A DNA stretch of 21,661 nucleotides. Origin: Anaerolineae bacterium. Lineage in GTDB: Bacteria > Chloroflexota > Anaerolineae > Aggregatilineales > Phototrophicaceae. The notes below the pieces were generated by a model. That model searched no databases and had not been told where the DNA came from. It worked only from the letters and a program-made list of their open reading frames with translations. The translations under genes and the position numbers were made by a program. Shown piece by piece: positions 417 through 21,156 of the stretch. The DNA lies in NCBI GenBank assembly GCA_028284565.1, contig JANQRM010000395.1, forward strand, positions 1-21,661, read 5' to 3'. Within the stretch, counting starts at the first letter, position 1. Each line of letters opens with the position of its first letter.

Positions 417-1871
417 TTATCCAAAATTGAGGGGTCCTTCAACGCCGACCACTCGCGTCCCGCAGAAAAATCGATAGGTTTCAATTGTCCCTTCTTCACT
501 GAAACCACTCCATCCCCAAGCAGGTCGTGGAGCCATTAGATTAAGGCTAATCATACTACTGCCATTGACTTTCACTCCACCAGCATGAACCTTGCGTCCG
601 AAATCCATCGCTCTGTCTTCATCAGTACTGAAGATATAGGCTTCTAGTCCGTAGGGGGTCCCATTCGCCAAAGCAAGGGCTTCACCGTCTGAGGTGAAAC
701 TGTGGATAGTGCCGATAGGTCCAAAAATCTCATCTTGTGCGTCGGCAATATCTATTCCTGCAATTAGAACCGGCCCAATAAAATTCCCATTCAAATCCGG
801 CAACGATGTAACGGATTTGGCTTTACCCCCTTTTTCGAGTAAGCTATCTCGTTGCTGCGTAATTTTTGCTAGATGACTTGAATGAACAATCGGACCCATC
901 ATACTTTCGGCAGAGAGCGAATCACCAATTATAACTTTTTCTAACCTAGCGAATACCGCATCGAGTAAGTCATCTTGGATGCTTGCGTGGACAATCAAGC
1001 GTCCTAAAGCTCGACACCATTGTCCGTTAAGCGTAATCATCAAATTGATGACCCCTTGAGCCGCCTCTTCTATATTAGCATCAGCAAAGACCACAACAGG
1101 GTTATTGCCACCAAGCTCAAGCTGTGCTGGTTTAAAGTCGAGTGAGCAAGCAGTTGCAATCGAGCGTCCGCCTTCTAGTCCACCCGTAAAGGTCACAGCT
1201 TTGATACGCTTATCTGCTACCAACTTTTTTCCGACTTCTGCACCACCATGTACAATCTGAAAAACGCCGTTGGGGATTCCAGCGGCATGGGCGGCATCTG
1301 CAAAGACATCACAACCATTGGGCGACCATTCGGTTGGTTTGAGGATACAAGGCGCGCCCGCCGCCAGTGCATTCGCCACTTTATGAGCCGCCATCGGTGC
1401 GGGTGCATTCCAAGGAACAAGGGCTAAGGCGGGTCCCCAAGGTTTTCGATGGATTTCCACTGTATTACCATTGGGTCCTTCCATTGTGGAGATTTGCCAA
1501 CCACTGTTCATCTGCTCAATTGCCAGATGCCATGCGCCAGTGGTAATGATATTGAGCATACTGGTTGTGCTGATGACTGCGCCTGTTGTCAAGGCTTCTA
1601 AGTGAGCGATTTCATCTTTGCGGTTATCTAATTCATCAGAAAAGGCGACAAGATATTCTGCACGTTCTTCAATCGGCATATCTGACCATGAACCTTCGGT
1701 GTGGACATGCCACGCCGTTGCCAATGCCTGTTCGATTTGGGCATCTGAGCTAGCCATTTGCTGTTGGATTTGCTCGCCTGTATTGGGATTTTCGAGCCAG
1801 ACCCCCAAATTTTCTGTTGGTGTGGAAATTTCACCATCAATATAATCTTTTAAGTTGGGAACAGTCGTCAT
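417..1871 (-). CDS. NAD(P)-dependent aldehyde dehydrogenase
   Basis: A full-length aldehyde dehydrogenase of 484 residues, the usual length for the superfamily, oxidising an aldehyde to the acid with NAD(P)+ in the cytosol. Visible residues are the oxyanion Asn in PWNAP (N155), the cofactor Lys in LKPTE (K178), the general base Glu in LELGGNNP (E252) and the catalytic Cys in NGQWCRA (C286). The cysteine context GQWC differs from the more usual GQ.C forms but the nucleophile is present. It is the last gene of the nine-gene operon, 20 bases after the calycin-like gene. If that operon degrades chlorophyll, plausible substrates are phytenal from released phytol, or an aldehyde left after oxygenolytic ring opening; this is inference. 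The second aldehyde dehydrogenase of the window (14451-15914) is clearly divergent. Confidence 0.93.
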   Translation of the reverse strand: MTTVPNLKDYIDGEISTPTENLGVWLENPNTGEQIQQQMASSDAQIEQALATAWHVHTEGSWSDMPIEERAEYLVAFSDELDNRKDEIAHLEALTTGAVISTTSMLNIITTGAWHLAIEQMNSGWQISTMEGPNGNTVEIHRKPWGPALALVPWNAPAPMAAHKVANALAAGAPCILKPTEWSPNGCDVFADAAHAAGIPNGVFQIVHGGAEVGKKLVADKRIKAVTFTGGLEGGRSIATACSLDFKPAQLELGGNNPVVVFADANIEEAAQGVINLMITLNGQWCRALGRLIVHASIQDDLLDAVFARLEKVIIGDSLSAESMMGPIVHSSHLAKITQQRDSLLEKGGKAKSVTSLPDLNGNFIGPVLIAGIDIADAQDEIFGPIGTIHSFTSDGEALALANGTPYGLEAYIFSTDEDRAMDFGRKVHAGGVKVNGSSMISLNLMAPRPAWGWSGFSEEGTIETYRFFCGTRVVGVEGPLNFG

Positions 1872-1891
1872 GTTGAGGTAACTCCTATTGG

Positions 1892-2479
1892 CTAGGAATG
1901 TGTGGATTCGTCTGTGAATACTTGGGTCGAGCTTCGCTTTTCATGGACATCTCCATCTAAACCACGTGGGTCGTCTGCATGGCGATGGGTTGCTGTTGGG
2001 GCAAGTTTATACCCTTGCGCATGCAAAGAACGGATAGCTTTTGTGTCACGATATAAAACGGTTGAACGCGTTCGTTTATTCGGTGGCTCTAAGAAGACGA
2101 AATCGGGTTCACTATAACGCTTGAGTGCATCATTGATTTCTGCTGGCATAAAAGCAAGGACATTATTGCCTGCTGAGACACCGATATGAAGCGGAGCATC
2201 GGGTCCGAGTTTGTCAAAATGCAAAATGCCATCTATCAAACGCCCCGTAAATGTGCGCACGTGTAAGGGTCTTCCACGAAAAGTCACATTGGTTTGGATG
2301 TAATGTTCACCGTCAAAGTCGATGTAGACGAGATTATCGAAGGGAGAAGCTCCCGGTGATTCTGCCTCTTCATCACGATCAATTGGCGAGCCGGATAAGT
2401 CATAGAGTTCGATATGGTCATGCCAGATACCATTCATCATGTTGAGCATGTAACCAACCGTCCCGACTGCAAAGCTCAT
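1892..2479 (-). CDS. Calycin/lipocalin-like beta-barrel protein (single barrel)
   Basis: A 195-residue protein of unknown function. Its ATG overlaps the stop of the acyl-CoA-dehydrogenase-like gene (ATGA at 2476-2479), showing translational coupling. The N-terminal NGIWHDH (G17-x-W19) resembles the G-x-W signature opening calycin barrels, followed by alternating hydrophobic beta-strand-like segments and an RTRSTVLYRD strand near residue 135. The last 35 residues are polar, His/Asp-rich and probably disordered. The opening resembles that of the protein encoded at 4586-5527 (TGVWHG), so the two may share a fold. Calycin barrels include the cyanobacterial CpcS-type bilin-handling proteins and DUF3598, so binding of a tetrapyrrole intermediate is a reasonable guess and no more than that. 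No signal peptide is apparent. Confidence 0.8.
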   Translation of the reverse strand: MSFAVGTVGYMLNMMNGIWHDHIELYDLSGSPIDRDEEAESPGASPFDNLVYIDFDGEHYIQTNVTFRGRPLHVRTFTGRLIDGILHFDKLGPDAPLHIGVSAGNNVLAFMPAEINDALKRYSEPDFVFLEPPNKRTRSTVLYRDTKAIRSLHAQGYKLAPTATHRHADDPRGLDGDVHEKRSSTQVFTDESTHS

Positions 2480-3771
2480 GGGTTTTTAATCACACTAAAA
2501 TCAGGTGTGTAGTGTTCCTTTGTGACCATCTCTGCCGCCATCAAGCGACCCCGTTCTGGTGGAAAAGCTTGGACTAATCCCATCGATAAATCACGTAAAG
2601 CACGTGCAATTACACTTGAATTATTGGTATTGCTTGTCCCACATGCTTTGAGTGCGTTGACTCCAACATTGAATGAGAGTTCAGCAACAGAACTTTTGGC
2701 TAAACGCCATTGTCGGATCACCTGTTCTCTGGTTAAGAGGGGCGGTTCAGACGTTTCGATATTTAGTTGGTGACGCAACCACAAATATGCGGCTTCCAAA
2801 TCGTTGGTCATTTGTCCGATCAGTTGTTGATGAAAGGGACTCTCGGCAATCGGGCGACCTGTATCTGCGAAGGTTTTGCTCATGAGATAATTGAGGGTGA
2901 AATCATAAACATTTTGTGCAGTACCAAGATAAATCGCCGTGCCCGCCAATTGATTGCCGACAAATGACCCCCGGCTGACTTGCATCATCAGCACAAACGC
3001 ATTCGGAATCGTCAGTGCATCGTCATCTGCAACAAAGACATCTTCCAGAATGATACCGTTAGTGGCAGTTGCTCGCATACCCAGTGAATCCCACGGCGCA
3101 CGAACTGAAACACCTTCTGCATCGCGTTTAACAAAAAAGACCGTTAAACCTTCAGCAGTGTCATAACCCTCTAGCGCAGCGGTGACCAGATATTCATCAG
3201 CAACCCCACTGGCACAACCAAAGAACTTAATCCCGTTCAAGAGCCAACCCCCATCAACCTTGCTGGCTTTAGTCTTAATTGTGATGGAGCTGGTACTCGT
3301 TTTGGTCGATTCACTAGCGAAATTGGCTAACCACTTGCCTTCTGTTCCCATTTTGTGGAGGACTTTTTCTGCAAAAGCTTTCACAATTGGAATTTCATAG
3401 TCGGTAAATAGCCCCGCTTCAATCGCTTCGAGTGACAATAATCCCCGTGAGGCAGAACTACAATGGAAGAAATAAGCGAGAGCAGTCGATGGGCAAGCCG
3501 TTCCCATCGCAAAGCAAGCAGAGGCTAAATCACGCAATGTGCCACCCATACCACCATATGCTTCTGGGACAATTAAGCCTAATAAACCCACATCACTTAG
3601 CGTTTGAATATGTGGTATTTGAAATTCGCCAGATTGATCGGCTTCAACCGCTGAGTCCCGTAAACTCGGCAATATCGATTCGACAACTGTGGCACGTTCC
3701 GCCTCGACTGATGTCATATCGGTGAGTAGCTGTTTTCCGGTGAGTTGTCGTTTCGCTTCAATATCCATCAT
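2476..3771 (-). CDS. Acyl-CoA-dehydrogenase-fold flavoprotein, possibly a monooxygenase
   Basis: A 431-residue protein with the three-part acyl-CoA dehydrogenase layout: a helical N-terminal domain containing VPEAYGGMGG, a central beta domain with LNGIKFFGCASG and AEGVSVRAPWDSLGMRATAT, and a C-terminal helical domain. In medium-chain enzymes the catalytic Glu lies nine residues after the Arg of the RD motif. Here RD is R393-D394 and that position is A402, in LVQAFPPERGR, so the usual base and the Glu-Gly-Thr that follows are gone. The alternative helix-G position (YDFTLNY) has no obvious Glu either. Such loss is typical of fold relatives that are flavin monooxygenases (the DszC/HsaA type), so desaturation of an acyl-CoA should not be assumed. 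It sits between the NYC1-like SDR gene (20-base gap) and the small calycin-like gene (4-base overlap). It may oxidise phytol-derived acyl groups or a pyrrolic product. Confidence 0.88.
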   Translation of the reverse strand: MMDIEAKRQLTGKQLLTDMTSVEAERATVVESILPSLRDSAVEADQSGEFQIPHIQTLSDVGLLGLIVPEAYGGMGGTLRDLASACFAMGTACPSTALAYFFHCSSASRGLLSLEAIEAGLFTDYEIPIVKAFAEKVLHKMGTEGKWLANFASESTKTSTSSITIKTKASKVDGGWLLNGIKFFGCASGVADEYLVTAALEGYDTAEGLTVFFVKRDAEGVSVRAPWDSLGMRATATNGIILEDVFVADDDALTIPNAFVLMMQVSRGSFVGNQLAGTAIYLGTAQNVYDFTLNYLMSKTFADTGRPIAESPFHQQLIGQMTNDLEAAYLWLRHQLNIETSEPPLLTREQVIRQWRLAKSSVAELSFNVGVNALKACGTSNTNNSSVIARALRDLSMGLVQAFPPERGRLMAAEMVTKEHYTPDFSVIKNP

Positions 3772-3791
3772 GTCTTCTGCTCAGTCAACTT

Positions 3792-4586
3792 CTATTCGTC
3801 TGCAAATAAGTCGCGTTTAATGAAGCGAGATGTGAGGAAACGCCAGATAATCTTCGGTGTGGTCAGCCAAGCAATCGATGTACCATCTTTGGTATTAGCG
3901 AGCATTTCCTCCACCAAATAAGGTGTCACTGTTTCGACTTTATCTGCCAGAATATTGAAAAATTTCTTGGCGCGTTCTTTTTCTTCTTCAGAGGTATAGC
4001 CACCCATCAGCAAATCAGTCACAACCATGCCGGGTGAGAGCGTGCCGATTAAGACGGGTTTGTCTTTGGCTTCTTTTTGGAGGGATTGTGTGAAGTAACG
4101 AAGGGCGTATTTGGTTGTGCCATAGGTTGTCAGTCCACCACGTTTGCGTCCCCCACTCCCGAAGCCTTCCATATTAAAAATTTGACCATGCCCCTGTGCT
4201 GTCATTCCCTTGATCGCAATATGGGACGCATGCATAATTCCATAAAGGTTGATATCGACAACTTGTTGATAATCTTCGGGACTTAGTTCCCAAAACATCA
4301 CGTTATTATGGTCAATCCCTGCATTATTCACCCAATAATCGACTTTTGAAAAACGTGCTACAGTTGCATCCCACATCGCTTGCACTTGCTCATAATTGGA
4401 GACATCACAGGCACAACCAAGTATTGCGTCTGCTGAATAGCGTTCACTCAATGTGGAGACTGCTTTATCTACACTATCTTGAGATCGTCCATTAATGACG
4501 ACAGCACAATTTCGTTTTAGGAATTCTTCAGCCAATCCATACCCGATACCACGGGTACTTCCGGTTATCATGATAACATTCTTCAT
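3792..4586 (-). CDS. Short-chain dehydrogenase resembling chlorophyll b reductase (NYC1/NOL)
   Basis: A 264-residue classical SDR using NAD(P)H. I place the start at 4586 because the frame then begins MKNVIMITGSTRGIG, directly at the cofactor loop, and ATG overlaps the previous gene's stop (TAATG); the longer frame from 4655 lies inside that gene. Visible are TGSTRGIG, the NNAG motif, and the active-site Tyr and Lys in TYGTTKYALR. Beyond the generic motifs, several segments match what I remember of plant NYC1/NOL: IFNMEGFGSGG just before the active site, LSPGMVVTDLL after it, a FNIL..KVETV segment, and a late LTTPKI..RFLTSRF stretch. Plant NYC1/NOL reduce the C7 formyl of chlorophyll b to 7-hydroxymethyl chlorophyll. 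Neighbours related to other chlorophyll-breakdown enzymes support this reading. The exact substrate is inferred. Confidence 0.88.
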   Translation of the reverse strand: MKNVIMITGSTRGIGYGLAEEFLKRNCAVVINGRSQDSVDKAVSTLSERYSADAILGCACDVSNYEQVQAMWDATVARFSKVDYWVNNAGIDHNNVMFWELSPEDYQQVVDINLYGIMHASHIAIKGMTAQGHGQIFNMEGFGSGGRKRGGLTTYGTTKYALRYFTQSLQKEAKDKPVLIGTLSPGMVVTDLLMGGYTSEEEKERAKKFFNILADKVETVTPYLVEEMLANTKDGTSIAWLTTPKIIWRFLTSRFIKRDLFADE

Positions 4587-5527
4587 TAGGACTCTTCCCA
4601 TTTCAGTTCGCCGAAGGTGGTATATTGGCGATGGTCGCTGGCAAAGAATTGCCAAACTACACTCATGCTCATCTCGTCATCAATGATGAACTCGCGCCCT
4701 TGAATCTTGAGGGCTTCGCCGTAGAAATGTTGCTTGGTATAGAGTGCGCGTCCATAGGCAATGCCGTTGCCATGAATATCGGGTCCATCAAAGGTATGGC
4801 GATTGTTGTTGCGTGAGCGGTCAAATGAATACGATTTATTAAAAACACCTGATATATGAATTGTCATTTTGGAGCGTAGGAGGGAGAGAGGTTTGTAGTG
4901 CATTTCTACCTGATTTATCCCTAATTTTTCTTGGTGACCGTTATAGACTTCCATCTCTCCAGACCACTTGCCCGATTTCTTCGCAGGTAAGACATGAGGA
5001 TTAGGTCCATTGTTGCCCTCACTAGCCACAAACGCATCAATCCATTTTTTGGTATCGGGATTGTCCTCATAATCATGAGCGACTTTATAGATTCCATTGA
5101 AGACGGAGAATAGGGTTGGTCCATCAAACAACAAGGAGGAATACACTTGGGTTTTTCCATCGGCTAGAATATGCACCATCGTCCGAAGGTCGGCTGTCCA
5201 CTGGGGCGAGTAATAATTGGCATCGACTAACATACCATGAGGATGTCCCGCGCCGATAAAATCGGGTCCCAGATAGATGCGATTTTGGTCACTATCCATC
5301 ACACCAAAGGCAAAATCTCGCGCTTCAAGCCGATACCGTAAGGGTCCTGTTGCATCGAGTGTTGTGTTCATGAAGTAGGTGGTTTTTCCATCTTCAAAGA
5401 CACTGGAACGATAGACATGATTATAGCCGACATGATTGCCCTCCGCATCGAAAATCGAGGGTTGTCCATGCCATACACCGGTTATTTGTTGTTGCCATTC
5501 ACTAGGTTTGGTGGCAGGGCTTGTCAT
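4586..5527 (-). CDS. Tandem calycin/lipocalin-like protein (two barrels)
   Basis: A 313-residue protein whose two halves each open with a G-x-W signature followed by an amphipathic strand: TGVWHG (G17, W19) and SGKWSG (G186, W188). The first half contains aromatic and His-rich loops such as GAGHPHG; the second ends in KWEES with strand-rich spacing. The pattern recalls DUF3598-like or CpcS-like calycins but I cannot assign it to a named family. There is no signal peptide or transmembrane segment. It follows the second RCCR-like gene by 12 bases and its TAA overlaps the ATG of the NYC1-like SDR gene, so it is produced together with these enzymes. A carrier for a hydrophobic or photoreactive tetrapyrrole intermediate would fit, as would an enzyme using the barrel; both are inference. 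Confidence 0.82.
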   Translation of the reverse strand: MTSPATKPSEWQQQITGVWHGQPSIFDAEGNHVGYNHVYRSSVFEDGKTTYFMNTTLDATGPLRYRLEARDFAFGVMDSDQNRIYLGPDFIGAGHPHGMLVDANYYSPQWTADLRTMVHILADGKTQVYSSLLFDGPTLFSVFNGIYKVAHDYEDNPDTKKWIDAFVASEGNNGPNPHVLPAKKSGKWSGEMEVYNGHQEKLGINQVEMHYKPLSLLRSKMTIHISGVFNKSYSFDRSRNNNRHTFDGPDIHGNGIAYGRALYTKQHFYGEALKIQGREFIIDDEMSMSVVWQFFASDHRQYTTFGELKWEES

Positions 5528-5539
5528 AAGGTCTTCTTT

Positions 5540-6262
5540 CTATGCTTCTATGGTTTCTACTGCTTGATTTTTAAGTATCTGTTGAAGTTCTCGGCTCACA
5601 TCTTCACCAAGCAGACGGTCAACCTGCGCCCACACTTTGTCTACCTTCGGGTTAAATACGGCGTGACGATTGGCTTGGTCACGCTCTGCCAATTGGTCGG
5701 TTGAGTAACCTGCATCAGTTACACTGCTATCGACTAACCTAAACCAATGTTCCAGATATTGGGAGACCGGAGCTTGTATGGCATCGAAAGCCTCTGCATT
5801 CGCCCGATATGCCAACATCCAAGGCGACATAATGGCATATTGGGTTGGACCTAAGCGGGCGGGAGTTAGCCCTTCGATTGCGGCGGCATCAGCAAAGACG
5901 GCATCAAGTGGAGTAAACACCTCCATGATGTAATCAAGATTCGCCCCTAAATCTACACGCGGAATTAAATCGAGATGAAAGGCAAAACCTTCTTGCATCA
6001 AGACACTATCGAGGGTGAAGTGTGGCACTGGACTATCTGGTGATGTAAAGGCAAAAATCATATGGCTATCCAAGCCAAACGCCTCGACAGTCATGCTGAT
6101 ATACACCATTTTTGCGACGGATTCCCCACGAAACAAACGACATTCGCCAACCGATCCCATTTGACTGGTCAGTGCCTTAAAAGGCGAACCGATTTCGGTC
6201 ATCCCGAATTGGTTTTGTATTCGGGCTAAAGTGTGATGCGATAGATTTTTGGCGGCACTCAT
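5540..6262 (-). CDS. Red chlorophyll catabolite reductase-like protein, second copy
   Basis: A 240-residue protein whose centre reads VPHFTLD (residues 79-85) then HLDLIPRVDLG (D98, R102, D104), a later SPWMLAYRA (residues 146-154) and an acidic C-terminus. This order and spacing resembles the plant RCCR core as I remember it: an APN/APH-F strand, a LDL.HRKDL strand, then a SP.L..R helix. RCCR is a ferredoxin-dependent bilin-reductase relative that reduces the linear product of pheophorbide a oxygenase. The ATG overlaps the stop of the Rieske oxygenase gene (ATGA at 6259-6262), tying the two at translation, as expected if one feeds the other. It is shorter and more divergent than the copy at 8406-9227, so the two probably reduce different double bonds or form a heteromer. 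Family assignment is moderately secure; activity is inferred. Confidence 0.85.
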   Translation of the reverse strand: MSAAKNLSHHTLARIQNQFGMTEIGSPFKALTSQMGSVGECRLFRGESVAKMVYISMTVEAFGLDSHMIFAFTSPDSPVPHFTLDSVLMQEGFAFHLDLIPRVDLGANLDYIMEVFTPLDAVFADAAAIEGLTPARLGPTQYAIMSPWMLAYRANAEAFDAIQAPVSQYLEHWFRLVDSSVTDAGYSTDQLAERDQANRHAVFNPKVDKVWAQVDRLLGEDVSRELQQILKNQAVETIEA

Positions 6263-7437
6263 TCAGTTATATCCTCAGTTTGATTGGATGCTGAACCATT
6301 TTGTGGCGAGGTATATTCACCGCCACCTGTTTGACGTGTTGGGACTTCTTTCATCACCCAAGCATCTTTGAGTTCTGGGATTTCACGGCGCGCAGGTGAA
6401 GGAATCACAACCGCTTTAACATTGGTGTATTCGGATTTAATCAGGTGAGAGTCAATGCCCCAACCATGATCGAGGTAATAATTCCGTTTTTGACGAAAAT
6501 CGACCTGGATACGGTCTGAGCGGACATGCAATTCAGCGGCGAGGTCATAGGGCAAGAGTTCGGGACGCTGTTCTAGAACGGTTTTGCGATCTTCATCGAA
6601 GATTTTAATCACCCGTCGCTCGGCATCGCCATCGAAAATTTTCTGAGGGAAGAATGAGCGTAAGAGTAACCAGATACTGCGTGTTTTCTGTTCTTCGACG
6701 GGCAGATGAAAGGTGTACAGTAAGAAATCGCCGACAGGTAAGCGCACATTAAGTCGCGTTACATTGGGCATCCGATAGCCCCCTGTAGTGACAACAGGTG
6801 GACGTTCTTTTCCACCACGTAGGAAACGCCATAAACCTGATGGAGCCGGGGGATTCAGCGAGACAGTTGCATTGCCTCCCCATTCCATCTTTTCGACTTC
6901 ATATTCTTCGACTTCCGGTTCGTCGGGATTGCCAAATGAACCCGCATGAACAAAGGGCGCATGCGAAATATCCATGCCATTTTCAACAGCACGAGTATAA
7001 TGCACATCCCACCAGTATTCGCCCCAGGTTGCCCGATATTTTTCATCCCCCCATTCCGGAATTTCACAGAGGGGTGGGCGCTCGGCTTCGGGTAAATCTC
7101 CTAAGAATGCAAAAATAAATCCATATTTTTCTTGTGTTGGATATTTATCTACGCGCGCTTTTTTGGGGATGGAGCGTCCCTCTATATTCGCTGGGATTTT
7201 GACGCAAGAACCATCTTGTTCATATTCCCAACCATGATAGGGACAAACGATACAATCGCCTTTTGTCCAACCGTCCGATAATGCACCCCCTCGATGAACG
7301 CACAAATCACTCATCACAACTGGCGTGCCATCGGAGGTACGATAGATGACCAATTCATTGCCGAGCGCTGTGACGCGAATGGGCTTATCTTCAACTTCCG
7401 TTGATAAGCACAAGGCATACCAAAAATTTTTTAACAT
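6259..7437 (-). CDS. Rieske oxygenase, PaO/vanillate-demethylase type
   Basis: A 392-residue oxygenase. The N-terminal Rieske [2Fe-2S] domain has CVH (C46, H48) and CPYH (C65, H68), the CxH-x16-CxxH arrangement. The catalytic domain has the mononuclear iron motif in ENGMDISHAPFVH (N153, D156, H159, H164). The ENxMDxSHAPFVH form is shared with single-component oxygenases such as PaO, chlorophyllide a oxygenase and vanillate demethylase rather than with alpha/beta aromatic dioxygenases, and no beta subunit is encoded nearby. I see no C-terminal CxxC or transmembrane anchor of the kind found in plant PaO, and the tail is polar. Lying between two RCCR-like genes, opening of a tetrapyrrole macrocycle is the most economical role. 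A reductase or ferredoxin partner is not in the window. Upstream AAAGG is the ribosome site. Confidence 0.95.
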   Translation of the reverse strand: MLKNFWYALCLSTEVEDKPIRVTALGNELVIYRTSDGTPVVMSDLCVHRGGALSDGWTKGDCIVCPYHGWEYEQDGSCVKIPANIEGRSIPKKARVDKYPTQEKYGFIFAFLGDLPEAERPPLCEIPEWGDEKYRATWGEYWWDVHYTRAVENGMDISHAPFVHAGSFGNPDEPEVEEYEVEKMEWGGNATVSLNPPAPSGLWRFLRGGKERPPVVTTGGYRMPNVTRLNVRLPVGDFLLYTFHLPVEEQKTRSIWLLLRSFFPQKIFDGDAERRVIKIFDEDRKTVLEQRPELLPYDLAAELHVRSDRIQVDFRQKRNYYLDHGWGIDSHLIKSEYTNVKAVVIPSPARREIPELKDAWVMKEVPTRQTGGGEYTSPQNGSASNQTEDITE

Positions 7438-7458
7438 GATTACAACCTTTGCTCGTAT

Positions 7459-8406
7459 TTACACGTGTTGCCAAATTGTGGCAGTCGATGGACGCTCAAT
7501 AATGTCTTGTTGAAACAAAATATTTTTTATGAATTGTATAACTAATTGACTTATATCAGCGCGAATATGTGCCTCGTCTCCCGTTGCCTCGCTATCCATA
7601 AAAATGCGCCCGATACTATGGTCCGGTGGATAGCAAATGGTGTGATGATTTGCCCCTTCAAAAATACTGAGGATGCTATTGTGATAGTTCGCTTCATTAA
7701 ATAGCCGACAAAGATATTCTGCACCGCTTTCTTGACTATTGCCAAATACCCGCACATGATGATCGCCGATTCCATCTTCAGTTGCCCCCATCATTAGCAC
7801 CGGAACGTCTGTTGGCATAGCCGGAATTGCTCCTTTGTCCCAATTGCCCAAAACAGATGTCGCTAATGGATTAGCGCAAAAGGCGATAGAACCCGTTATC
7901 GATGAAAACCAATCATGACGAGCATTTTGTAGCGCCATTGTGCCACCAGCCGAGTGTCCACCGAGAATTATGTCATCTCGCAAATGACCCGCCAGTTCCG
8001 ATTCATCTCGTAGGGTATCTACTGCCTCCAATATCGACTTGAGACTGCTCGAAGTCGGACGTGCGCCATAAATGTCTTGCTGAACGGCTTCGATGTCGAT
8101 ACCGGGAGAAATGCTGATTCGATTGGGCAAATTTTCCGCAATCCATGATGCAATCACCGTTACAATGCCGCAGTTGGCTAAGTCTTGTGCTAGCCATTCA
8201 TAAGTGTGCGCGCTACAATTCACACCCGGTAAGAAAATCATCATCGGTGCAGGCGACCATTGTGTGTCAAAAGGTAAAACACCAGTTTGATAATCTGCCT
8301 CAGTTTTTGGAGCTAGGGCAGGGTAAAAGATTTTCAGTTGAATGCGATTGTAGGGTTCCGGTACAGTTTCCACCGTCACCATACGGAGTAACGCACGAGC
8401 AGGCAT
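7459..8406 (-). CDS. Chlorophyllase-like alpha/beta hydrolase
   Basis: A 315-residue serine hydrolase of the chlorophyllase/dienelactone-hydrolase kind. FLPGVNCSAHTYEWLA (residues 58-73) is the oxyanion strand and resembles the F.HG.N.S...Y..L segment of plant chlorophyllase. The nucleophile elbow is GGHSAGG (S152), the likely acid is D211 in MGATEDGIG, and the catalytic His is H254 or H255 in ANHHTICYPPD. There is no signal peptide. Its ATG overlaps the stop of the upstream RCCR-like gene (TAATG at 8404-8408). Chlorophyllase removes the phytyl chain from chlorophyll; released phytol would give the operon's aldehyde dehydrogenase and acyl-CoA-dehydrogenase-like protein plausible downstream work. 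Other esters, for example a methyl ester on a tetrapyrrole, are equally possible. The hydrolase family is secure; the substrate is inferred from context. Confidence 0.9.
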   Translation of the reverse strand: MPARALLRMVTVETVPEPYNRIQLKIFYPALAPKTEADYQTGVLPFDTQWSPAPMMIFLPGVNCSAHTYEWLAQDLANCGIVTVIASWIAENLPNRISISPGIDIEAVQQDIYGARPTSSSLKSILEAVDTLRDESELAGHLRDDIILGGHSAGGTMALQNARHDWFSSITGSIAFCANPLATSVLGNWDKGAIPAMPTDVPVLMMGATEDGIGDHHVRVFGNSQESGAEYLCRLFNEANYHNSILSIFEGANHHTICYPPDHSIGRIFMDSEATGDEAHIRADISQLVIQFIKNILFQQDIIERPSTATIWQHV

Positions 8407-9227
8407 TAGGCATCGACTCCGGGACGGGGTAGCTCACGGTCTGCACCCCATAAGGCACGTACAAGACGGTCTGTCAGTTCTTTACCAAACATGCGCTCAC
8501 CCAAAACATTTGCCGGGTCACGCTCAGCAATCGTCCGACGGAAGAATAAATCACGTTCTGCTAGTGCGGGGCGTTCTGCTTCGGGGACAGTATCACCTTC
8601 ATCAAGCCATGCTATCCATTGTGTCATCATCTGGTCGGCGGCAGATTTGACTTCTGCCATATTCTCTGGCGTATATTTGCAGGTATAACACAAGGCTGTT
8701 TCTGATAAGGCTTCGCGGACATAGAGAGAACGACTGAAAAACCAATTCATGTTGGAATTTTCGCGGAACTTGATGCTTAGGTCATTGGCAGGCTCATAAT
8801 ATTTATCGAGATAAGCGGTATCCATCAGCATATCGGCACGCGGGATAAAATCCATATAAAAGAAAATATCCGGCAAGGTGGCAAGTGCAAATGCAAGGTG
8901 CGGTACACGAGTCGTAGGGGGAAGCCATAGAGTCAAGTGCATATTAGCGAAACTATGCTCAGGATTTCCAATCCAACTATGGACGAACCAATCCAATTCA
9001 TCGCCCGACCAATTGCTCATGAAACCCCGTGCGCCTGAGCCATCGAAGGCTTCATACGGTTGTAAATCTTGAGTGGAGGGATCCATTTGAATCTCAAAAC
9101 GGTTATCAACCCGATTGCGGAGTTCGCCAAAAATTGACCACAATTCTTCAAAGGCTTCCGTGCGGTCGACATTGGGTTGCTCGGCAACTAACTCAACAAC
9201 TGATTTAACCTTTTTTTCTTTGCTCAT
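8406..9227 (-). CDS. Red chlorophyll catabolite reductase-like protein, first gene of the operon
   Basis: A 273-residue protein beginning the large operon, with ribosome site GAGGA six bases before the ATG. The core has FVHSWIGNPE (residues 81-90), VPHLAFAL (108-115), FYMDFIPRADM (D126, R130, D132), TAYLDKYYEP (137-146) and FSRSLYVREALS (164-175). The order closely tracks the plant RCCR core I remember: a SWIHCK strand, APNF..EL, L.LDLPHRKDL, PDYLKEYYQ and SPSLFVRSAFS. This is the better match of the two copies. Plant RCCR reduces red chlorophyll catabolite to primary fluorescent catabolite with electrons from ferredoxin and no bound cofactor. The charged N-terminal 25 residues are not part of that core. 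An operator-like TGTTATGACA lies just upstream. Family call is fairly confident; the true substrate (chlorophyll-, heme- or other tetrapyrrole-derived) is open. Confidence 0.87.
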   Translation of the reverse strand: MSKEKKVKSVVELVAEQPNVDRTEAFEELWSIFGELRNRVDNRFEIQMDPSTQDLQPYEAFDGSGARGFMSNWSGDELDWFVHSWIGNPEHSFANMHLTLWLPPTTRVPHLAFALATLPDIFFYMDFIPRADMLMDTAYLDKYYEPANDLSIKFRENSNMNWFFSRSLYVREALSETALCYTCKYTPENMAEVKSAADQMMTQWIAWLDEGDTVPEAERPALAERDLFFRRTIAERDPANVLGERMFGKELTDRLVRALWGADRELPRPGVDA

Positions 9228-9244
9228 AAACTATCCTCATGCTT

Positions 9245-9273: not shown

Positions 9274-9290
9274 AAAAGTGCCAGACAACT

Positions 9291-10016
9291 TTAGAGTGTG
9301 ATTTGATATTTGAATCGGTCTCCCCGGAAACGTGCCACCAAAAACTCAATCGGTGAACTATCACTCCCCATAACAATCCGTTCCATTTGCAAAATCGGTG
9401 TATTGGGTGCGGCATCTAACCAATCCATATCAAGGCGTTCAACAATACTGGCTTCTAAAGTGCGCTGAATACGAATCTCGGATAATGCCGGACAGTTCTG
9501 TAAGTAATCCAGTGATTGTCCCTTGGTGTATTTGGATTCATCAATGAATTTCCGAATATTTTTGGGGACATAGGCAAGATGATAGCCAATAACCCGATTA
9601 TCGGCTAAACGTAGCCGTCGAATTTGTAAGACACTAGCACCTTCTCGTATTTGCAGGGCATTAGCAACTGCTTCAGTTGCAATCACTTCGCTGGCATCTT
9701 TGAGTTGCCAATGAAGTGTAATCCCTTGTGATTTTGTATATTCATTGAGTTCAAATTGCTTCGAGGGGTCATAAGTAACTTTGGGTTCAGCAATAAAAGT
9801 TCCCAAACCGCGCTTCCTCACCAAATAGCCTTCGGTCACCAATTCGGACAAGGTTTGGCGAACCGTTGTACGGCTGATGTCATATACCTCTTGGAGTTGA
9901 TTTTCGCTCGGAAGAATATCACCGACATGCCATTCCCCATTGCGGATTTTGTCCAGCAATATGGTTTTCAGTTGATAGTACAATGGGATAGGTGAATTGC
10001 GATCAATAATCTGCAT
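9291..10016 (-). CDS. GntR-family transcriptional regulator, HutC type with UTRA domain
   Basis: A 241-residue regulator. Residues 5-76 form the winged helix-turn-helix, with LPSENQLQEVYDISRTTVRQ as the recognition unit and RKRGLGTF as the wing. Residues from about 90 to 238 are a UTRA effector-binding domain, with RRLRLADNRVIGYHLAYVP and the closing LVARFRGDRFKYQ typical of it. HutC-type regulators are usually repressors released by a pathway substrate or intermediate. The gene has its own strong promoter with a TGTCATGACA palindrome right after the -10, indicating autoregulation, and related sites lie at the nine-gene operon and the divergent 12356/12479 region. It sits between those units on the minus strand. 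The effector is unknown; a tetrapyrrole or breakdown product would be expected if the operon assignment is right. Confidence 0.96.
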   Translation of the reverse strand: MQIIDRNSPIPLYYQLKTILLDKIRNGEWHVGDILPSENQLQEVYDISRTTVRQTLSELVTEGYLVRKRGLGTFIAEPKVTYDPSKQFELNEYTKSQGITLHWQLKDASEVIATEAVANALQIREGASVLQIRRLRLADNRVIGYHLAYVPKNIRKFIDESKYTKGQSLDYLQNCPALSEIRIQRTLEASIVERLDMDWLDAAPNTPILQMERIVMGSDSSPIEFLVARFRGDRFKYQITL

Positions 10017-10047: not shown

Positions 10048-10076
10048 ACTATAACAAGATGGTTTAACCCTGTCAA
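10048..10076 (-). promoter_or_regulatory. Promoter of the GntR regulator gene
   Basis: On the minus strand a perfect -35 TTGACA (plus 10071-10076) and a -10 TATAGT (plus 10048-10053, five of six) are separated by exactly 17 bases. The palindromic operator abuts the -10. This is the best sigma-70-type promoter I found in the window. Confidence 0.75.
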
Positions 10077-11570: not shown

Positions 11571-12356
11571 TCAGGTGTCATTGATAAACTGGCGAATAAT
11601 TTGGGCGAGTTCTTCTGGATGTTCATCACAAATATAAGTCCCTGCCTCTGGGACAATAATCAATTCGCTCATCGGGATTGTTGAATGCGTGGGTTCTGCA
11701 CTTGCGCGAATCGTGTCATGTTCGCCACAAACAATCAGTGTTGGACAATGAATGTGAGCGAGTAATCCAGCAAAATCTTGCTCGAATACCGCTTGATAAC
11801 TTTCATGATAACGAGATGCACGTAATGTCAGTAAGGTTTCGCGTTGGACAAGCTGAAGATTCTCAATTTGTGTTGTTGACCGAATCCGTCCCCAGACCTT
11901 TGTGAGGTGCGAACCATCATGCGGGATTGTAGAATCAGACAAGGTTTGTTTGAGTGCTTGTTTTTGCTGTTCCGTCAAATGCGGTGGTCCACCGAGTATC
12001 AGTTTTTCCACTCGCTCAGGATAATCATGACAAAATTGCACTGCAATGGCTGACCCAGTGTGATGTCCGAATAAGTAGCATTTTCCGATATTCATTTCAT
12101 TGAATAACTGATGGACTATTTCAGCATAATAAGCAATGGTTGGTTTATGCTGGGGGTCGAACGATTCGCCATATCCCGGTGTATCAGGGGCAATGATGTG
12201 GAATGCTGTCAACATGGACATCAGTTGCTCATACATTACCGATGAACTCGCTGTTTGATGGAGCATCACCAGTGGAATGCTTGAGCCGTGACCACTCAAT
12301 CGATAATGGACTTGCCCATCTAGTAAATTGACATAGCCTTTTGTAATAAATGTCAT
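11571..12356 (-). CDS. Alpha/beta-hydrolase-fold protein with His at the nucleophile position
   Basis: A 261-residue protein of standard hydrolase-fold length and order: strand LVMLHQTASSS (oxyanion region), APDTPGYGES (residues 57-65), nucleophile elbow LFGHHTGSA, cap region, then VCGEHD (D214) and a C-terminal helix. The elbow reads G97-H98-H99-T100-G101, so the residue normally Ser, Asp or Cys is His99. The usual catalytic His near the C-terminus is also replaced: EAGTYICDEHPEE has Thr240 where GH normally occurs. I recall other bacterial proteins with the GHHTG elbow, so this looks like a subfamily and not random decay. It may bind a ligand or use another chemistry. First gene of a minus-strand unit reading towards the membrane protein genes, divergent from the operon at 12479. 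A perfect TGTCATGACA operator overlaps its start codon. Confidence 0.9.
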   Translation of the reverse strand: MTFITKGYVNLLDGQVHYRLSGHGSSIPLVMLHQTASSSVMYEQLMSMLTAFHIIAPDTPGYGESFDPQHKPTIAYYAEIVHQLFNEMNIGKCYLFGHHTGSAIAVQFCHDYPERVEKLILGGPPHLTEQQKQALKQTLSDSTIPHDGSHLTKVWGRIRSTTQIENLQLVQRETLLTLRASRYHESYQAVFEQDFAGLLAHIHCPTLIVCGEHDTIRASAEPTHSTIPMSELIIVPEAGTYICDEHPEELAQIIRQFINDT

Positions 12357-12478: not shown

Positions 12479-13249
12479 TTGATGGAATACAACAGGAATT
12501 ATCTTATGGTTGATGCTTTAGGTTGGCGCAAAAAGTTTGGTGTCATTGCACCCAGTACCAACACCATTGTAGAACCCGATTATTATCGAATGACTGTGCC
12601 GGGTGTTACCGCACATTTCTCTCGTATCTGGATTCGTGACCAAGATTTAAGTGATAACAGCAAATTTGAAGCCCTATTGGAACAAATTCGGGAAGAAATC
12701 ACTTATTCAGTACAACGAGCCTTGACTGCCGAGGTGGAATACATTGTCATGGGCATGAGTGCGGAAACGTTTTGGGGAGGCGTGGAAGGCAATCGCCAAT
12801 TTATCAAGGAAATCAAAGCCCTCAGTGGCTTAGATGTCGCAACTGGTGCAGAGGCTTGCGAAAGAGCCTTACATCTCTTCGGTGCGAAACGAATCGGCGT
12901 TGTGACACCCTATCAACCCATTGGAGATGAAAATGTCATCAAGTTCTTCAATGAAATTGGGTTTGAAGTTGTCAATCTCAAAGGCTTGAAATGCCCGACG
13001 GCTGTTGCCATAGCTCATGTCAGCGAAGCTGAATTACGGCAAGCTCTCATTGAGGTCAATAGTGATGATGTCGATGCCCTTGTCCAAGTCGGGACGAACT
13101 TGAGTATGTTGCAATTAGCAGACGAAGCGGAACGCTGGTTAAGTAAGCCAGTGATTGCCATTAATGCGGCAACATGGTGGATGGCACTCCGAGACAACGG
13201 TATTGATGACAAGATTTTTGGCTTAGGACGACTGCTCCGCGACTTTTAG
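12479..13249 (+). CDS. Arylmalonate decarboxylase/maleate isomerase-like protein lacking both family cysteines
   Basis: A 256-residue protein of the Asp/Glu racemase superfamily: WRKKFGVIAPSTNT at the N-terminus, MGMSAETFWGG (91-101) at the first active-site loop, GAKRIGVVTPY at the half-way strand, and QVGTNLS (203-209) at the second loop. Maleate isomerases carry a Cys in each loop and arylmalonate decarboxylase one in the second; here the positions are occupied by Gly/Met/Ser and Gly205. The only cysteines, C127 and C172, are elsewhere. Racemase, isomerase or decarboxylase chemistry of the known types is therefore doubtful. The protein may start at Met10 (12506), which has AGGA upstream and gives the common start at VDALGW. 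It leads a plus-strand operon with an FAD monooxygenase (8-base gap) and an aldehyde dehydrogenase, suggesting a ring-cleavage or small-acid degradation step. Confidence 0.88.
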   Translation: MMEYNRNYLMVDALGWRKKFGVIAPSTNTIVEPDYYRMTVPGVTAHFSRIWIRDQDLSDNSKFEALLEQIREEITYSVQRALTAEVEYIVMGMSAETFWGGVEGNRQFIKEIKALSGLDVATGAEACERALHLFGAKRIGVVTPYQPIGDENVIKFFNEIGFEVVNLKGLKCPTAVAIAHVSEAELRQALIEVNSDDVDALVQVGTNLSMLQLADEAERWLSKPVIAINAATWWMALRDNGIDDKIFGLGRLLRDF

Positions 13250-13257
13250 GATAGATT

Positions 13258-14454
13258 ATGGAATCGGGACTGCCGATAATCATTATTGGAGCGGGACCTG
13301 TTGGTTTATCATTGGCAACAGCTCTAGTTCAGAAAAATATTTCTGTACATGTTTATGAGAAATGCCAGACTCTAAGTTCTGAAGCGCGTGCCAGCACGAT
13401 TCATCCACGTACATTGGAGATGTTTGATGAATGGGGGATGGTCGATAAGGTGTTAAAAGCAGGCTATCGGGTCGATTTTCTCCAATTTTGGGAGCGCGAT
13501 AGCCAACAACTCATTGCCCAATTTGATTATGATGTCATTGTCGATGACACCCCTTACCCTTTTCGTCTACAGTGTCCCCAAAGTGTGCTAACCCGTGTTT
13601 TGAAACCGCATATTGATACGAGTGATTGTGGTGCTGTCTTCATGGAACACGAATTTATGTTTGTCGAAGATAAGGGCACACATATCGAAGCAACCTTCAA
13701 GACACTGGAAGGGGAAAAAGTCGTCAAAGGACGTTTTCTGTGCGGTGCTGACGGTGCGAAAAGTACTGTCCGAGAGATACTCGATATTGACTTTGAAGGC
13801 ATGACTTACCGTGATCGTTTTTTGCTCGTTGCTACCGACATCAATTTCAATCCAATTTATCCGCATTTGGGACCTGTATGCTATCTATTTGACCCTGAAG
13901 AATGGGTAATTATCTTGCAATTACCGGACATCACACGAATCGTTTTCCGTATTCCAGAAAATGCAGATGATTTGGCTGTACAAGATTTCGATAATGTTCG
14001 TCAGCGTATTCAGGATTTTACGGGCAGTCAGCGTGATTTTATGATTCATAACGTGTCTATCTACAATGTACATCAACGAGTTGCCAGTACGTTACGACAG
14101 GGAAATGTTGTTTTGTTGGGAGATGCTGGACATATCAACAACCCGATGGGCGGGATGGGGATGAACAGCGGTATTCATGATGCTTACCATTTGGCTAATC
14201 TGATTGAACGCATTTTACAAGGTGAATCCGACAGCTTACTTGATGACTATAGCCAGATGCGAATTCACTATGCTCGAAATCACATTCGTCAATCGACGGA
14301 TAAAAACTATCAAGATATGACTGCGAATGACACGAGCTATCGAGAAAAGCGTAATCAGTACTTCCGTGATATTGCCTCAGACCGAGCTAAACAACGGGAC
14401 TATCTCATTCAGCGTTCGATGTTAGATGATCGCATTATTCTGGAGAACTCATGA
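13258..14454 (+). CDS. FAD-dependent monooxygenase (PheA/TfdB, UbiH-like group)
   Basis: A 398-residue class A flavin monooxygenase that would hydroxylate an aromatic or heteroaromatic substrate with NAD(P)H and oxygen. The dinucleotide-binding IIIIGAGPVGLSLA (G11, G13, G16) opens the protein, the DG motif is CGADGAKSTV (162-171), and the second FAD motif is VVLLGDAGHINNP (284-296) followed by GGMGMNSGIHDAYHLA. STIHPRTLEMFDEWG near residues 46-60 is typical of the phenol hydroxylase group. There is no extra thioredoxin-like C-terminal domain, consistent with the short length. The start follows a TAGGATAG ribosome site that includes the preceding stop codon. The stop overlaps the aldehyde dehydrogenase start (ATGA). 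Substrate unknown; a pyrrole- or pyridine-type compound from the pathway is possible. Confidence 0.94.
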   Translation: MESGLPIIIIGAGPVGLSLATALVQKNISVHVYEKCQTLSSEARASTIHPRTLEMFDEWGMVDKVLKAGYRVDFLQFWERDSQQLIAQFDYDVIVDDTPYPFRLQCPQSVLTRVLKPHIDTSDCGAVFMEHEFMFVEDKGTHIEATFKTLEGEKVVKGRFLCGADGAKSTVREILDIDFEGMTYRDRFLLVATDINFNPIYPHLGPVCYLFDPEEWVIILQLPDITRIVFRIPENADDLAVQDFDNVRQRIQDFTGSQRDFMIHNVSIYNVHQRVASTLRQGNVVLLGDAGHINNPMGGMGMNSGIHDAYHLANLIERILQGESDSLLDDYSQMRIHYARNHIRQSTDKNYQDMTANDTSYREKRNQYFRDIASDRAKQRDYLIQRSMLDDRIILENS

Positions 14455-15914
14455 CGACCTCGTTCCATGCCAAAACCTATAACTTGTGGATTGATGGTCA
14501 TAATGTTCCATCAGTAGCGGGAGAGACCTTTCCTGTATATGCACCTGCTGATGGTCGGCTGATTGCTTATGCCACACGAGCCAAACACGAAGATGTCAAC
14601 AAAGCTGTTGCCTCAGCGGTAAAAGCCTCACAACAATGGCGTGACATGAGTCCCACGCAACGTGAATTGGTAATGCTGAAATCTGCCGATTATTTGGAAG
14701 CACACGCCGATGATATTCTGGATTTGTTGATTGATGAAAGTGGCTCAACCATCGGTAAAGCACGCTTTGAAATAGCTTATAGTGCCAATTTACTCCGAGC
14801 CGCGGCTGGCGAAGCACGCCGTTTATATGGTGATACCTTCCCCAATGATAAATCGCATCGTATGTCGCTGGTCATTCGAGAAGCAATGGGAGTTGTCGCC
14901 GCAATTTCTCCCTTTAATGCCCCGCTTGTGCTTCTGGTTAAGATGGTCGTGTTTGCACTCGCAGTCGGCAATGCAGTTATTAGCAAGCCAAGTGAAGAAA
15001 CCCCACTGATCGCCATCGAATTTGGCAAAATGCTTACAGCATCGGGAATACCGGATGGAGTCTTCAACGTCGTTACGGGATTTGGAGCAGAAGCTGGCAA
15101 ATCCTTAGTCGAACATCCTGATGTACGTGGAATTGCATTTACGGGAAGCACAGCCACAGGCATTCGCATCCAGCAACAATCCGCCAACACGATGAAACGC
15201 CTCCAACTTGAATTGGGCGGTAAGAATCCCTTACTCATTCTCAATGATGTTGACCCTGTTGAGGCGGCAGAAATTACCGCAGTTGGCGCATTTTTTCATG
15301 GTGGGCAGATTTGCATGTCCAGTTCACGAGTGATTGTCGAATCGGGTGTCGCTGAAGACTTTATTGAAGCCATTACAAATAAAGCGAAAAGCATCTATCT
15401 TGGCGATTTGCGTGATGAGCGAACAGCTTACGGTCCACTGATTAACCAGAAAGCACTGGACAAAGTGATACAGCATGTCCAATCTGCCGTGGATGCTGGT
15501 GCGACGTTACTGACAGGTGGTGATGTGCATCAGAGCCTAACCTATCTACCAACCGTGTTGTTAGAACCACCGAGAGACAATGTAGCTTGGTGTGAAGAGA
15601 CTTTTGGGCCTGTACTGAGTATCGTTGTGATAGACAATCTTGAAGAAGCCATTCATGTGGCAAATGAAAGCGATTATGGTTTGAGCGCAGGTATTCTCAC
15701 GAATGATATGCAACGTGGGATGCAAGCCGCACGACAAATTAACTGCGGGGCTGTTCATGTTGGGATGCACTCCTTCCAAAGCGACGCAATGGCTCCGGTA
15801 GGTGGTTATGGATTATCTGGCATTGGGCGCAGTGGTGGCAAATATAGCGTGGAGCATTTTACAGAAGTGAAGTGGATTAGCCTTGAATTAGGCAATACAC
15901 CGCGTCCATTCTGA
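14451..15914 (+). CDS. NAD(P)-dependent aldehyde dehydrogenase, second copy
   Basis: A 487-residue aldehyde dehydrogenase with the full active site: oxyanion Asn in SPFNAPL (N156), cofactor Lys in SKPSEE (K179), general base Glu in LELGGKNP (E254) and nucleophile Cys in GGQICMSSSR (C288). The GGQICMSSSR form is typical of the benzaldehyde/vanillin/semialdehyde dehydrogenase group. GGAG-rich GGAGAACTC before the ATG is the ribosome site, inside the monooxygenase gene, which overlaps by four bases. It closes the plus-strand operon and meets the minus-strand operon tail-to-tail 20 bases away. It would oxidise an aldehyde arising from the monooxygenase or the first gene product; the substrate cannot be told from sequence. 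It is not a recent duplicate of the copy at 417-1871. Confidence 0.94.
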   Translation: MTTSFHAKTYNLWIDGHNVPSVAGETFPVYAPADGRLIAYATRAKHEDVNKAVASAVKASQQWRDMSPTQRELVMLKSADYLEAHADDILDLLIDESGSTIGKARFEIAYSANLLRAAAGEARRLYGDTFPNDKSHRMSLVIREAMGVVAAISPFNAPLVLLVKMVVFALAVGNAVISKPSEETPLIAIEFGKMLTASGIPDGVFNVVTGFGAEAGKSLVEHPDVRGIAFTGSTATGIRIQQQSANTMKRLQLELGGKNPLLILNDVDPVEAAEITAVGAFFHGGQICMSSSRVIVESGVAEDFIEAITNKAKSIYLGDLRDERTAYGPLINQKALDKVIQHVQSAVDAGATLLTGGDVHQSLTYLPTVLLEPPRDNVAWCEETFGPVLSIVVIDNLEEAIHVANESDYGLSAGILTNDMQRGMQAARQINCGAVHVGMHSFQSDAMAPVGGYGLSGIGRSGGKYSVEHFTEVKWISLELGNTPRPF

Positions 15915-15918
15915 GGCT

Positions 15919-16639: not shown

Positions 16640-16643
16640 AATT

Positions 16644-20511: not shown

Positions 20512-21156
20512 CTACGCGCTTGCATCAGATAAATTGTTGAGATAATCTATGACTTCTTTTTTGCTGACCACGTCCCCATATTTGCTATTAATATCGAAAA
20601 GATTAGATTCATGCGGTTGCGCGTGTCGATCTCCAACGCATTCCTGTGGAACAATGATCCGGAAACCATATTGCATGCCATCGACAGCCGATGCACGAAT
20701 ACAACCACTCGTTGAACAACCAGTCAGCAAGACGGTATCGACCCCAAGACTCGTCAACATCGCCGCGAGCGAAGTCCCAAAAAAGGCACTGGCATACTGT
20801 TTGACAATAATCACATCTTCATCTTGCGGTTCCAGTTCAGGCACAATCTCAGCCAGTGGTTCACCTTCAACCATTGTGAGGAGTACTGGGACTTTCTGAA
20901 CAAAAATCCCACCATCAAGTCCATTTTTGTTGTAGAGAACTTTCGTGTAGATGACGGGAACAGCCTTTTGTCGGGCAAGTGCAAGTAAATCAACCGTCTC
21001 ATTCACCGCTCCGACAACTGGCTCAGCATAAAGGGCTGAACCTTCAGTAGTGTACGCATTGATAAAATCGACAACCAGCACGGCGGCTTTCTTTCCAAAC
21101 CCTAAACGCCCATCAAATACACCCGCATAATTCTTTTTCAAATTACTATCTGACAT
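20512..21156 (-). CDS. Isochorismatase-family amidohydrolase (maleamate/N-carbamoylsarcosine amidase-like)
   Basis: A 214-residue cysteine hydrolase with the family triad: D30 in VLVVDFINAY, K119 in IVKQYASAFFGT, and C152 in TGCSTSGCIRAS. FDGRLGFGKKAA at the N-terminus and QECVGDRHAQPHESNLFD near the end resemble maleamate amidohydrolase and N-carbamoylsarcosine amidase more than isochorismatase or nicotinamidase, and the family also includes enzymes acting on other linear amides. GAGGGG nine bases upstream is the ribosome site. It is the first gene of the five-gene minus-strand operon and has a good promoter overlapped by an inverted repeat. Removal of an amide to leave a dicarboxylate for the following CoA-transferase gives a coherent order, but the substrate is inferred. 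Confidence 0.93.
   Translation of the reverse strand: MSDSNLKKNYAGVFDGRLGFGKKAAVLVVDFINAYTTEGSALYAEPVVGAVNETVDLLALARQKAVPVIYTKVLYNKNGLDGGIFVQKVPVLLTMVEGEPLAEIVPELEPQDEDVIIVKQYASAFFGTSLAAMLTSLGVDTVLLTGCSTSGCIRASAVDGMQYGFRIIVPQECVGDRHAQPHESNLFDINSKYGDVVSKKEVIDYLNNLSDASA

Follow-up and report, generated by a model that had tools for sequence, protein, structure and literature searches.

The window examined here, a 21,661-nucleotide stretch of an Anaerolineae bacterium (Chloroflexota; assembly GCA_028284565.1, contig JANQRM010000395.1), encodes what is probably a system for the catabolism of open-chain tetrapyrroles, predicted to be chlorophyll-derived bilins from the environment. The system comprises the genes at 417-10016 and a mixed-strand island that continues to 21156 (Table 1). 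Central to this proposal are a member of the red chlorophyll catabolite reductase (RCCR) family, encoded at 8406, and a second protein with the predicted RCCR/ferredoxin-dependent bilin reductase (FDBR) fold, encoded at 5540 (FDBR240, whose relatives are referred to as the 5540 family). The genes, their predicted folds and their linkage are shown by the data; what the system acts on, how its steps are ordered and each single reaction are inferred.

A first-pass annotation of this DNA had listed only the run at 417-9227, as a tightly coupled operon with four kinds of chlorophyll-breakdown enzymes forming a complete catabolic pathway. The tight spacing was confirmed and the pair of RCCR-fold proteins supported, but the identities assigned to the Rieske oxygenase, the hydrolase and the short-chain dehydrogenase (SDR) were not, and the system reaches further in the window, to genes at 12479-18380 for a nitrilase, an FAD monooxygenase and an Amdase-family protein.

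The RCCR gene recurs with the same partners across phyla

A scan with one genome per species yielded 170 confirmed RCCR loci, the best 80 of which were analyzed. Locus genes were anchored by tblastn, frame clusters were accepted only with the support of a profile or a consistent place, and linkage was counted at ≥100 bits and compared with 43 control windows (18-20 kb, taken from 13 of these genomes). The most frequent partners in the 80 loci were the Rieske oxygenase (59), the 5540 family (58), the predicted double-calycin protein cal313 (57), the alpha/beta hydrolase ABH (55) and the nitrilase (53), followed by SDR (50), the aldehyde dehydrogenases ALDH1 and ALDH2 (47 each, the two cross-matching), the Amdase-family protein (37), and the acyl-CoA-dehydrogenase-fold flavoprotein (ACAD) and FAD-dependent monooxygenase (FMO) (31 each). 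Lower counts were obtained for the CoA-transferase (19), the HMG-CoA-lyase-like protein (HMGL, 17), the GntR regulator (7), the 195-aa protein cal195 (5), the isochorismatase-type amidase (4), the second hydrolase ABH2 (2), two membrane proteins (mem1 and mem2, 1 each) and a 252-aa protein (duf252, 0). In the control windows, all families scored 0 except ALDH1 (2), ALDH2 (2), SDR (1) and the CoA-transferase (1), which rules out a chance neighborhood. The association of RCCR with these partners far exceeds what chance would give.

RCCR, Rieske, the 5540 family and cal313 make up a core of four genes, which was present in full in 55 of the 80 loci. By our own grouping, the core was complete in 34/35 actinomycete, 15/15 Acidimicrobiia-like, 3/8 Chloroflexota, 3/6 proteobacterial or other, and 0/16 cyanobacterial loci; of the five Chloroflexota loci without the full core, three (L001, L002 and L013) lie on truncated contigs. 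The GntR gene accompanied RCCR in seven of the eight Chloroflexota loci, and the Amdase-family gene did so in 34 of the 35 actinomycete loci. One deltaproteobacterial locus (L012) joins the upper and lower parts of the system in a single run of 12 co-directional genes, in the order nitrilase, Amdase, 5540 family, ACAD, cal195, ALDH1, FMO, ABH2, RCCR, ABH, Rieske (11826) and cal313.

Co-occurrence was also found at the level of whole genomes. Among 150 class relatives of one Chloroflexota carrier (E 1e-10), RCCR was detected in 4 and the 5540 family in the same 4, although the corresponding chance figure of 5e-8 is too favorable, given that two of these genomes (G009 and G010) were already known RCCR carriers and that kinship is ignored. 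In three of these four carriers, the RCCR and 5540 genes lie at least 84 kb apart or on separate contigs, while the Rieske, 5540-family and cal313 genes stay together. Likewise, in 200 actinomycete-order genomes (E 1e-30), RCCR was present in 2 and the 5540 family in the same 2, one of which (G022) was already known. A plasmid-borne cluster was also considered, and the one plasmid search made with RCCR returned no match.

Several other neighbors of RCCR were observed in these loci. In 11 cyanobacterial loci (L009, L011, L014-L017, L021, L022, L025, L030 and L041), where the core partners are absent, a gene of CN-hydrolase type (PF00795, one member scanned) comes after RCCR, and all but one of the 11 also have an aldehyde dehydrogenase gene after it; L016 and L021 carry two RCCR genes each. 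Four extra genes, found in 17-21 loci each, lie beside RCCR in L013 (6874-9989), L005 (855-4031) and Acidimicrobiia-like loci such as L026, L029, L032-L034 and L036. One encodes a protein of 150-170 aa and another a DUF3891 protein (PF13030 by scan of one member), while the products of the other two align weakly with cal313 (14-23% identity). By its size, the 150-170 aa protein of the Chloroflexota and Acidimicrobiia-like loci had been considered as a Mg-dechelatase (Staygreen, SGR), but the four members scanned had no Pfam match. A small Dabb-domain gene (PF07876, one scanned), at 7917-8204 in L065 and in 15 other actinomycete loci, mostly lies shortly before the nitrilase gene on the opposite strand.

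An RCCR-family protein and a second of predicted RCCR/bilin reductase fold

The protein encoded at 8406 is, by sequence, an RCCR-family member, as the first-pass annotation had predicted: it matched PF06405 at 70.9 bits (cut-off 24.9; E 1.2e-19) and the Arabidopsis RCCR structures in the PDB at E 3.6e-12, or 1e-19 by profile. In Arabidopsis RCCR, we take position 154 to be the catalytic Glu and position 291 a functional Asp. With plant numbering fixed via the F218V pair 3aga/3agb, the Asp291 column corresponds to D237 of the bacterial protein and is invariant (24/24 RCCR rows), whereas the Glu154 column corresponds to A114 and is Ala in all 24. Because of this replacement, the protein is regarded as an RCCR-family homolog and not as a proven red chlorophyll catabolite reductase.

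The protein encoded at 5540 had been proposed as a second RCCR. Its predicted fold is that of RCCR/FDBR by structure comparison, and the profile of its family aligned with the RCCR profile at an hhalign probability of 98.8 over 222 columns, but PF06405 gave no match and the Fe_bilin_red model PF05996 scored 19.1 bits, under its cut-off of 31. Additionally, the RCCR profile alone recovered 5540-family genes in four genomes (E 6.2e-14 to 1.7e-11), at the positions given by the search with the 5540 family itself. Both proteins thus fall within the RCCR/bilin reductase fold, the former by family match and the latter by predicted fold. Two Asp residues are invariant in all 45 rows of the 5540 family: D208, which matches RCCR D237, and D85, in a PHFTLDS motif. 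The acidic residue of the PxxxxD motif is presumably Asp105 in PcyA; the D85 column was set by this motif against gtPebB, and hhalign opens a gap beside D85. The differing acid sets of the two proteins would fit two different reductions, or one reductase with a binding or isomerising partner. A search at E 0.001 returned 1,454 database proteins of the 5540 family, and the best 120 of these are 'hypothetical' wherever fully named; if the island is read rightly, a role would be suggested for this family.

Other enzymes of the run

The nine genes of the run follow one another in the same orientation, on the minus strand between 9227 and 417, and the regulator gene sits 63 bases before them. The RCCR and ABH genes share 1 base (8406), 4-base overlaps join the Rieske gene to the 5540 gene (6259/6262) and ACAD to cal195 (2476/2479), and four other junctions have gaps of 12-21 bases. 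The listed open reading frame of the SDR begins with TTG at 4655; its true start is most likely 4586, which gives a 264-aa form with 1 base in common with the upstream stop. Proteins of Anaerolineales and other Chloroflexota are among the closest homologs that carry a name, which makes that group the probable origin of the window. Upstream of the regulator there is a promoter-like sequence, although the promoter scan gave no more such sites than shuffled sequence did.

For three other enzymes of the run, the identities first proposed were not supported. The Rieske protein, annotated as pheophorbide a oxygenase (PaO), combines PF00355 with VanA_C (PF19112), has SxtDIOX, SxtT, NdmA and DdmC as PDB relatives, and did not match PaO PF08417 at E 0.1. 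The hydrolase at 7459, annotated as a chlorophyllase, falls outside the Chlorophyllase family by Pfam (no match at E 0.1), with weak general alpha/beta-hydrolase matches; its Ser-Asp-His triad (S152, D211 and H254) is invariant in 23/23 rows, and its nearest solved relatives, by local matches, are PET hydrolases and cutinases. For the SDR, the models, PDB structures and database names that matched were generic ones, with no special link to the chlorophyll b reductases NYC1/NOL in these comparisons, which did not take in the plant NYC1/NOL sequences directly. 'Four kinds of chlorophyll-breakdown enzymes' is not supported as a description of the run, in which no PaO, Chlorophyllase or specific NYC1/NOL match was found.

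Some other first-pass assignments held. By sequence, the 4586 product cal313, guessed to be a calycin, matched nothing in Pfam; structure prediction gives a double barrel with DUF3598 and BFA1 nearest among the families listed by the structure search (those not listed are not thereby excluded), the match spanning both barrels. It is predicted to bind or carry tetrapyrroles. The acyl-CoA-dehydrogenase-like flavoprotein (PF02770/PF08028/PF02771) and the aldehyde dehydrogenase (PF00171) are likewise present. ACAD is possibly a two-component flavin monooxygenase; a gene family found in 15 actinomycete loci, with a flavin-reductase domain (PF01613, one member scanned), lies directly before ACAD in 14 of them.

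Lower-pathway candidates in the island

Beyond the regulator, the island encodes candidates for a lower pathway. In the nitrilase, the Glu-Lys-Cys triad (E54, K126 and C159) is invariant in 12/12 rows. The Amdase-family protein is strongly conserved: of 18 homologs aligned from RCCR loci, 16 share 66-76% identity with it, and the remaining two 50 and 53%. Maleate isomerases presumably use two catalytic Cys; the window protein carries the motifs MGMSAE and VQVGTN, so that the canonical Cys pair is absent, while VQCGTN occurs in 17/19 rows. Canonical maleate isomerisation, considered as its role, is weakened by the absence of both catalytic Cys, and a simple maleate step is therefore disfavored. 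In other RCCR loci, scans of single members identified an aconitase-family hydratase, PEP-mutase/ICL, MmgE/PrpD and cyclase-family proteins, an HpcH/HpaI lyase and an amidohydrolase. Such lower sets would suit branched C4-C8 dicarboxylates, for example from methylethylmaleimide or hematinic acid, both discussed as chlorophyll oxidation products in the accessible text of PMC7318184.

Two further stretches of the minus strand were noted. The two membrane-protein genes at 10091-11523, the second with a weak 7TM match, are possible transporters or sensors; weak homologs often adjoin the Amdase-family gene in actinomycete loci, at <100 bits except in 1 of the 80 loci. At 15935-16693, a 252-aa protein has no Pfam match, and tblastn found no hits to it in the 80 loci.

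Table 1. Positions and supporting matches of features in the window
Feature	Position	Strand	Basis
ALDH1, aldehyde dehydrogenase	417..1871	-	PF00171, 357 bits
cal195, 195 aa	1892..2479	-	no Pfam match; homologs in 5/80 loci
ACAD, acyl-CoA-dehydrogenase-fold flavoprotein	2476..3771	-	PF02770/PF08028/PF02771
SDR, short-chain dehydrogenase	3792..4586 (longest reading frame from 4655)	-	PF00106, 139.7 bits
cal313, double calycin-barrel, predicted tetrapyrrole binder/carrier, 313 aa	4586..5527	-	predicted fold
FDBR240, second RCCR/FDBR-fold protein, 240 aa	5540..6262	-	predicted fold; profile homology
Rieske non-haem iron oxygenase, VanA/DdmC/NdmA type, 392 aa	6259..7437	-	PF00355 + PF19112
ABH, alpha/beta hydrolase (predicted esterase), 315 aa	7459..8406	-	weak alpha/beta-hydrolase Pfam matches; triad
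RCCR family, 273 aa	8406..9227	-	PF06405; Arabidopsis RCCR structures
GntR/UTRA regulator, first gene of run	9291..10016	-	PF00392, PF07702
Promoter-like site, TTGACA-17-TATAGT, before regulator	10048..10076	-	11/12 consensus match
ABH2, second alpha/beta hydrolase	11571..12356	-	PF00561; in L012 12-gene run
Amdase/maleate-isomerase-superfamily protein	12479..13249	+	PF17645
FMO, FAD-dependent aromatic monooxygenase, PnpA/HspB-like	13258..14454	+	PF01494
ALDH2, aldehyde dehydrogenase	14451..15914	+	PF00171, 509.8 bits
Nitrilase-superfamily amidohydrolase, two CN_hydrolase stretches	16644..18380	-	PF00795
HMGL, HMG-CoA-lyase-like	18381..19301	-	PF00682
Family III CoA-transferase	19302..20498	-	PF02515, 417 bits
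Isochorismatase-superfamily amidase near N-carbamoylsarcosine amidohydrolase	20512..21156	-	PF00857; 26st E 1e-50, 3ot4 E 1e-42

Proposed pathway and alternative explanations

Based on the data presented above, the following scheme can be proposed. The calycin proteins would hold the pigment, the hydrolase would remove an ester from it, and the Rieske enzyme would oxidise it, either opening the macrocycle or hydroxylating side chains. With electrons from ferredoxin, each of the bilin-reductase-fold proteins might reduce a different bond of the linear chain, while SDR and ALDH1 would act on formyl or aldehyde groups. Cleavage of the reduced chain into one-ring pieces could fall to the ACAD-fold and FAD monooxygenases; the lactam or imide rings would be opened by the nitrilase and isochorismatase-type amidases, and the CoA-transferase and lyase would deliver branched C4-C8 acids to central metabolism. 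This final stage is the least certain, since fewer than half of the RCCR loci have the CoA-transferase, HMGL or isochorismatase-type gene linked to RCCR. GntR presumably senses the pigment or a product.

On the reading of the first-pass annotation, the operon would reproduce the plant PaO/phyllobilin pathway in a bacterium and start from intact chlorophyll b or a. This is suited by the joint occurrence within the run of an RCCR-family protein, a second RCCR-fold protein, a Rieske enzyme, a hydrolase and an SDR, but opposed by the missing family matches described above and by searches for feeder enzymes. None of 40 genomes with RCCR gave a Mg-dechelatase (PF12638) match, and the completeness claimed in the first-pass annotation is not supported. 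The same search exceeded the cut-off in four of the 150 class relatives (G046, G083, G115 and G174), which do not overlap with the four that carry RCCR; their Staygreen-type genes possibly reflect a separate tetrapyrrole use. PaO exceeded its cut-off in 2/40 genomes, both cyanobacteria, with sub-threshold matches of 23-24 bits in five more. The complete plant pathway as originally stated is ruled out by these results together with the Pfam comparisons, and the plant-pathway reading as a whole appears quite unlikely. Heme oxygenase was detected in 16/40 genomes and not found in the other 24, with no match in any of the eight Chloroflexota carriers, and was rejected as a general feeder. Given these counts, neither a complete chlorophyll route nor one fed by heme oxygenase is general, and a better fit would be a metal-free, already opened substrate, or one that the Rieske enzyme opens.

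The RCCR/FDBR-fold proteins could instead have been recruited for a non-tetrapyrrole substrate, such as another N-heterocycle or aromatic degraded by a nicotinate-like lower pathway. The PnpA/HspB-like FAD monooxygenase, isochorismatase-type amidase, maleate-isomerase-superfamily protein, CoA-transferase and HMGL form a set that we take to resemble nicotinate-type lower pathways, and the Ala in place of the plant catalytic Glu points the same way; we nevertheless judge this explanation unlikely. A biosynthetic cluster, in which the bilin-reductase-fold proteins make a chromophore or pigment-like natural product, could be imagined from the 35 actinomycete loci among the 80 and from known FDBRs and heterotroph pre-PcyA proteins, which make bilins according to the accessible text of PMC10151467. 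However, GntR and IclR regulators, aldehyde dehydrogenases, a CoA-transferase, lyases and amidases would rather suit catabolism, heme oxygenase is missing from the matches in most carriers, and the same core occurs in Chloroflexota, Acidimicrobiia-like, actinomycete and proteobacterial loci, all of which renders biosynthesis very improbable.

Significance and comparison with known systems

Chlorophyll is made and degraded yearly at a scale of 10^12 kg, and its oxidation to one-ring products yields maleimides and hematinic acid, both of which have been reported in lake sediments and in leaves undergoing senescence (PMC7318184, accessible text). If catabolism of open-chain tetrapyrroles is the right reading, the island supplies named candidates for the enzymes in cultured strains, among them the Actinoplanes italicus and Streptomyces strains of L065 and L069, opens the bacterial breakdown of pigments to experiment, and bears on the origin of plant RCCR. 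More tentatively, it may be the first set of genes by which bacteria would fully mineralise open-chain pigments of chlorophyll: a system pairing RCCR with a bilin reductase in Chloroflexota, Actinomycetota and Proteobacteria, by which chlorophyll-derived bilins would be reduced and cut to single rings and the ring acids passed to central metabolism, and which might resemble the bacterial source pathway of plant RCCR. No bacterial RCCR operon or gene set consuming linear pigments was found in the literature, most subscription papers and preprints lying outside the coverage of the search. Cyanobacterial RCCRs (PMC2716323), FDBR-type pre-PcyA of heterotrophs (PMC10151467) and bacterial SGR (PMC8531759) are already in print, as the accessible parts of these papers show.

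Like the plant PaO/phyllobilin pathway, the island places an RCCR-family protein, a Rieske enzyme, a hydrolase and an SDR in one set and uses the bilin reductase fold. Unlike it, the Rieske enzyme is VanA-type, the hydrolase is near PET hydrolases and cutinases, SGR and PaO were not found, plant Glu154 is replaced by Ala, and the island has in addition a second protein of FDBR fold and genes for lower catabolic steps. The 5540 family shares its predicted fold, the PxxxxD Asp and non-photosynthetic bacterial hosts with FDBRs and the pre-PcyA proteins of heterotrophs, as far as the accessible text of PMC10151467 describes them, but it falls under the PF05996 cut-off, and the pre-PcyA neighbors given there (heme oxygenase, V4R and globin) have no Pfam match among the window genes. 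Cyanobacterial homologs (PMC2716323, in part) belong to the same RCCR family, whereas the Rieske/5540-family/cal313 core is absent from 16/16 of their loci. Anaerolineae SGR homologs (PMC8531759 and PMC11006732, in part) come from the same class and act on tetrapyrroles, and the accessible text of PMC8531759 calls the physiological relevance of bacterial SGR unknown; SGR and RCCR were not found together in any genome searched. Finally, cal313 resembles the DUF3598/BFA1 double-calycin proteins in predicted fold across both barrels, but differs from them in having no Pfam match by sequence and in being encoded beside bilin-reductase-fold proteins.

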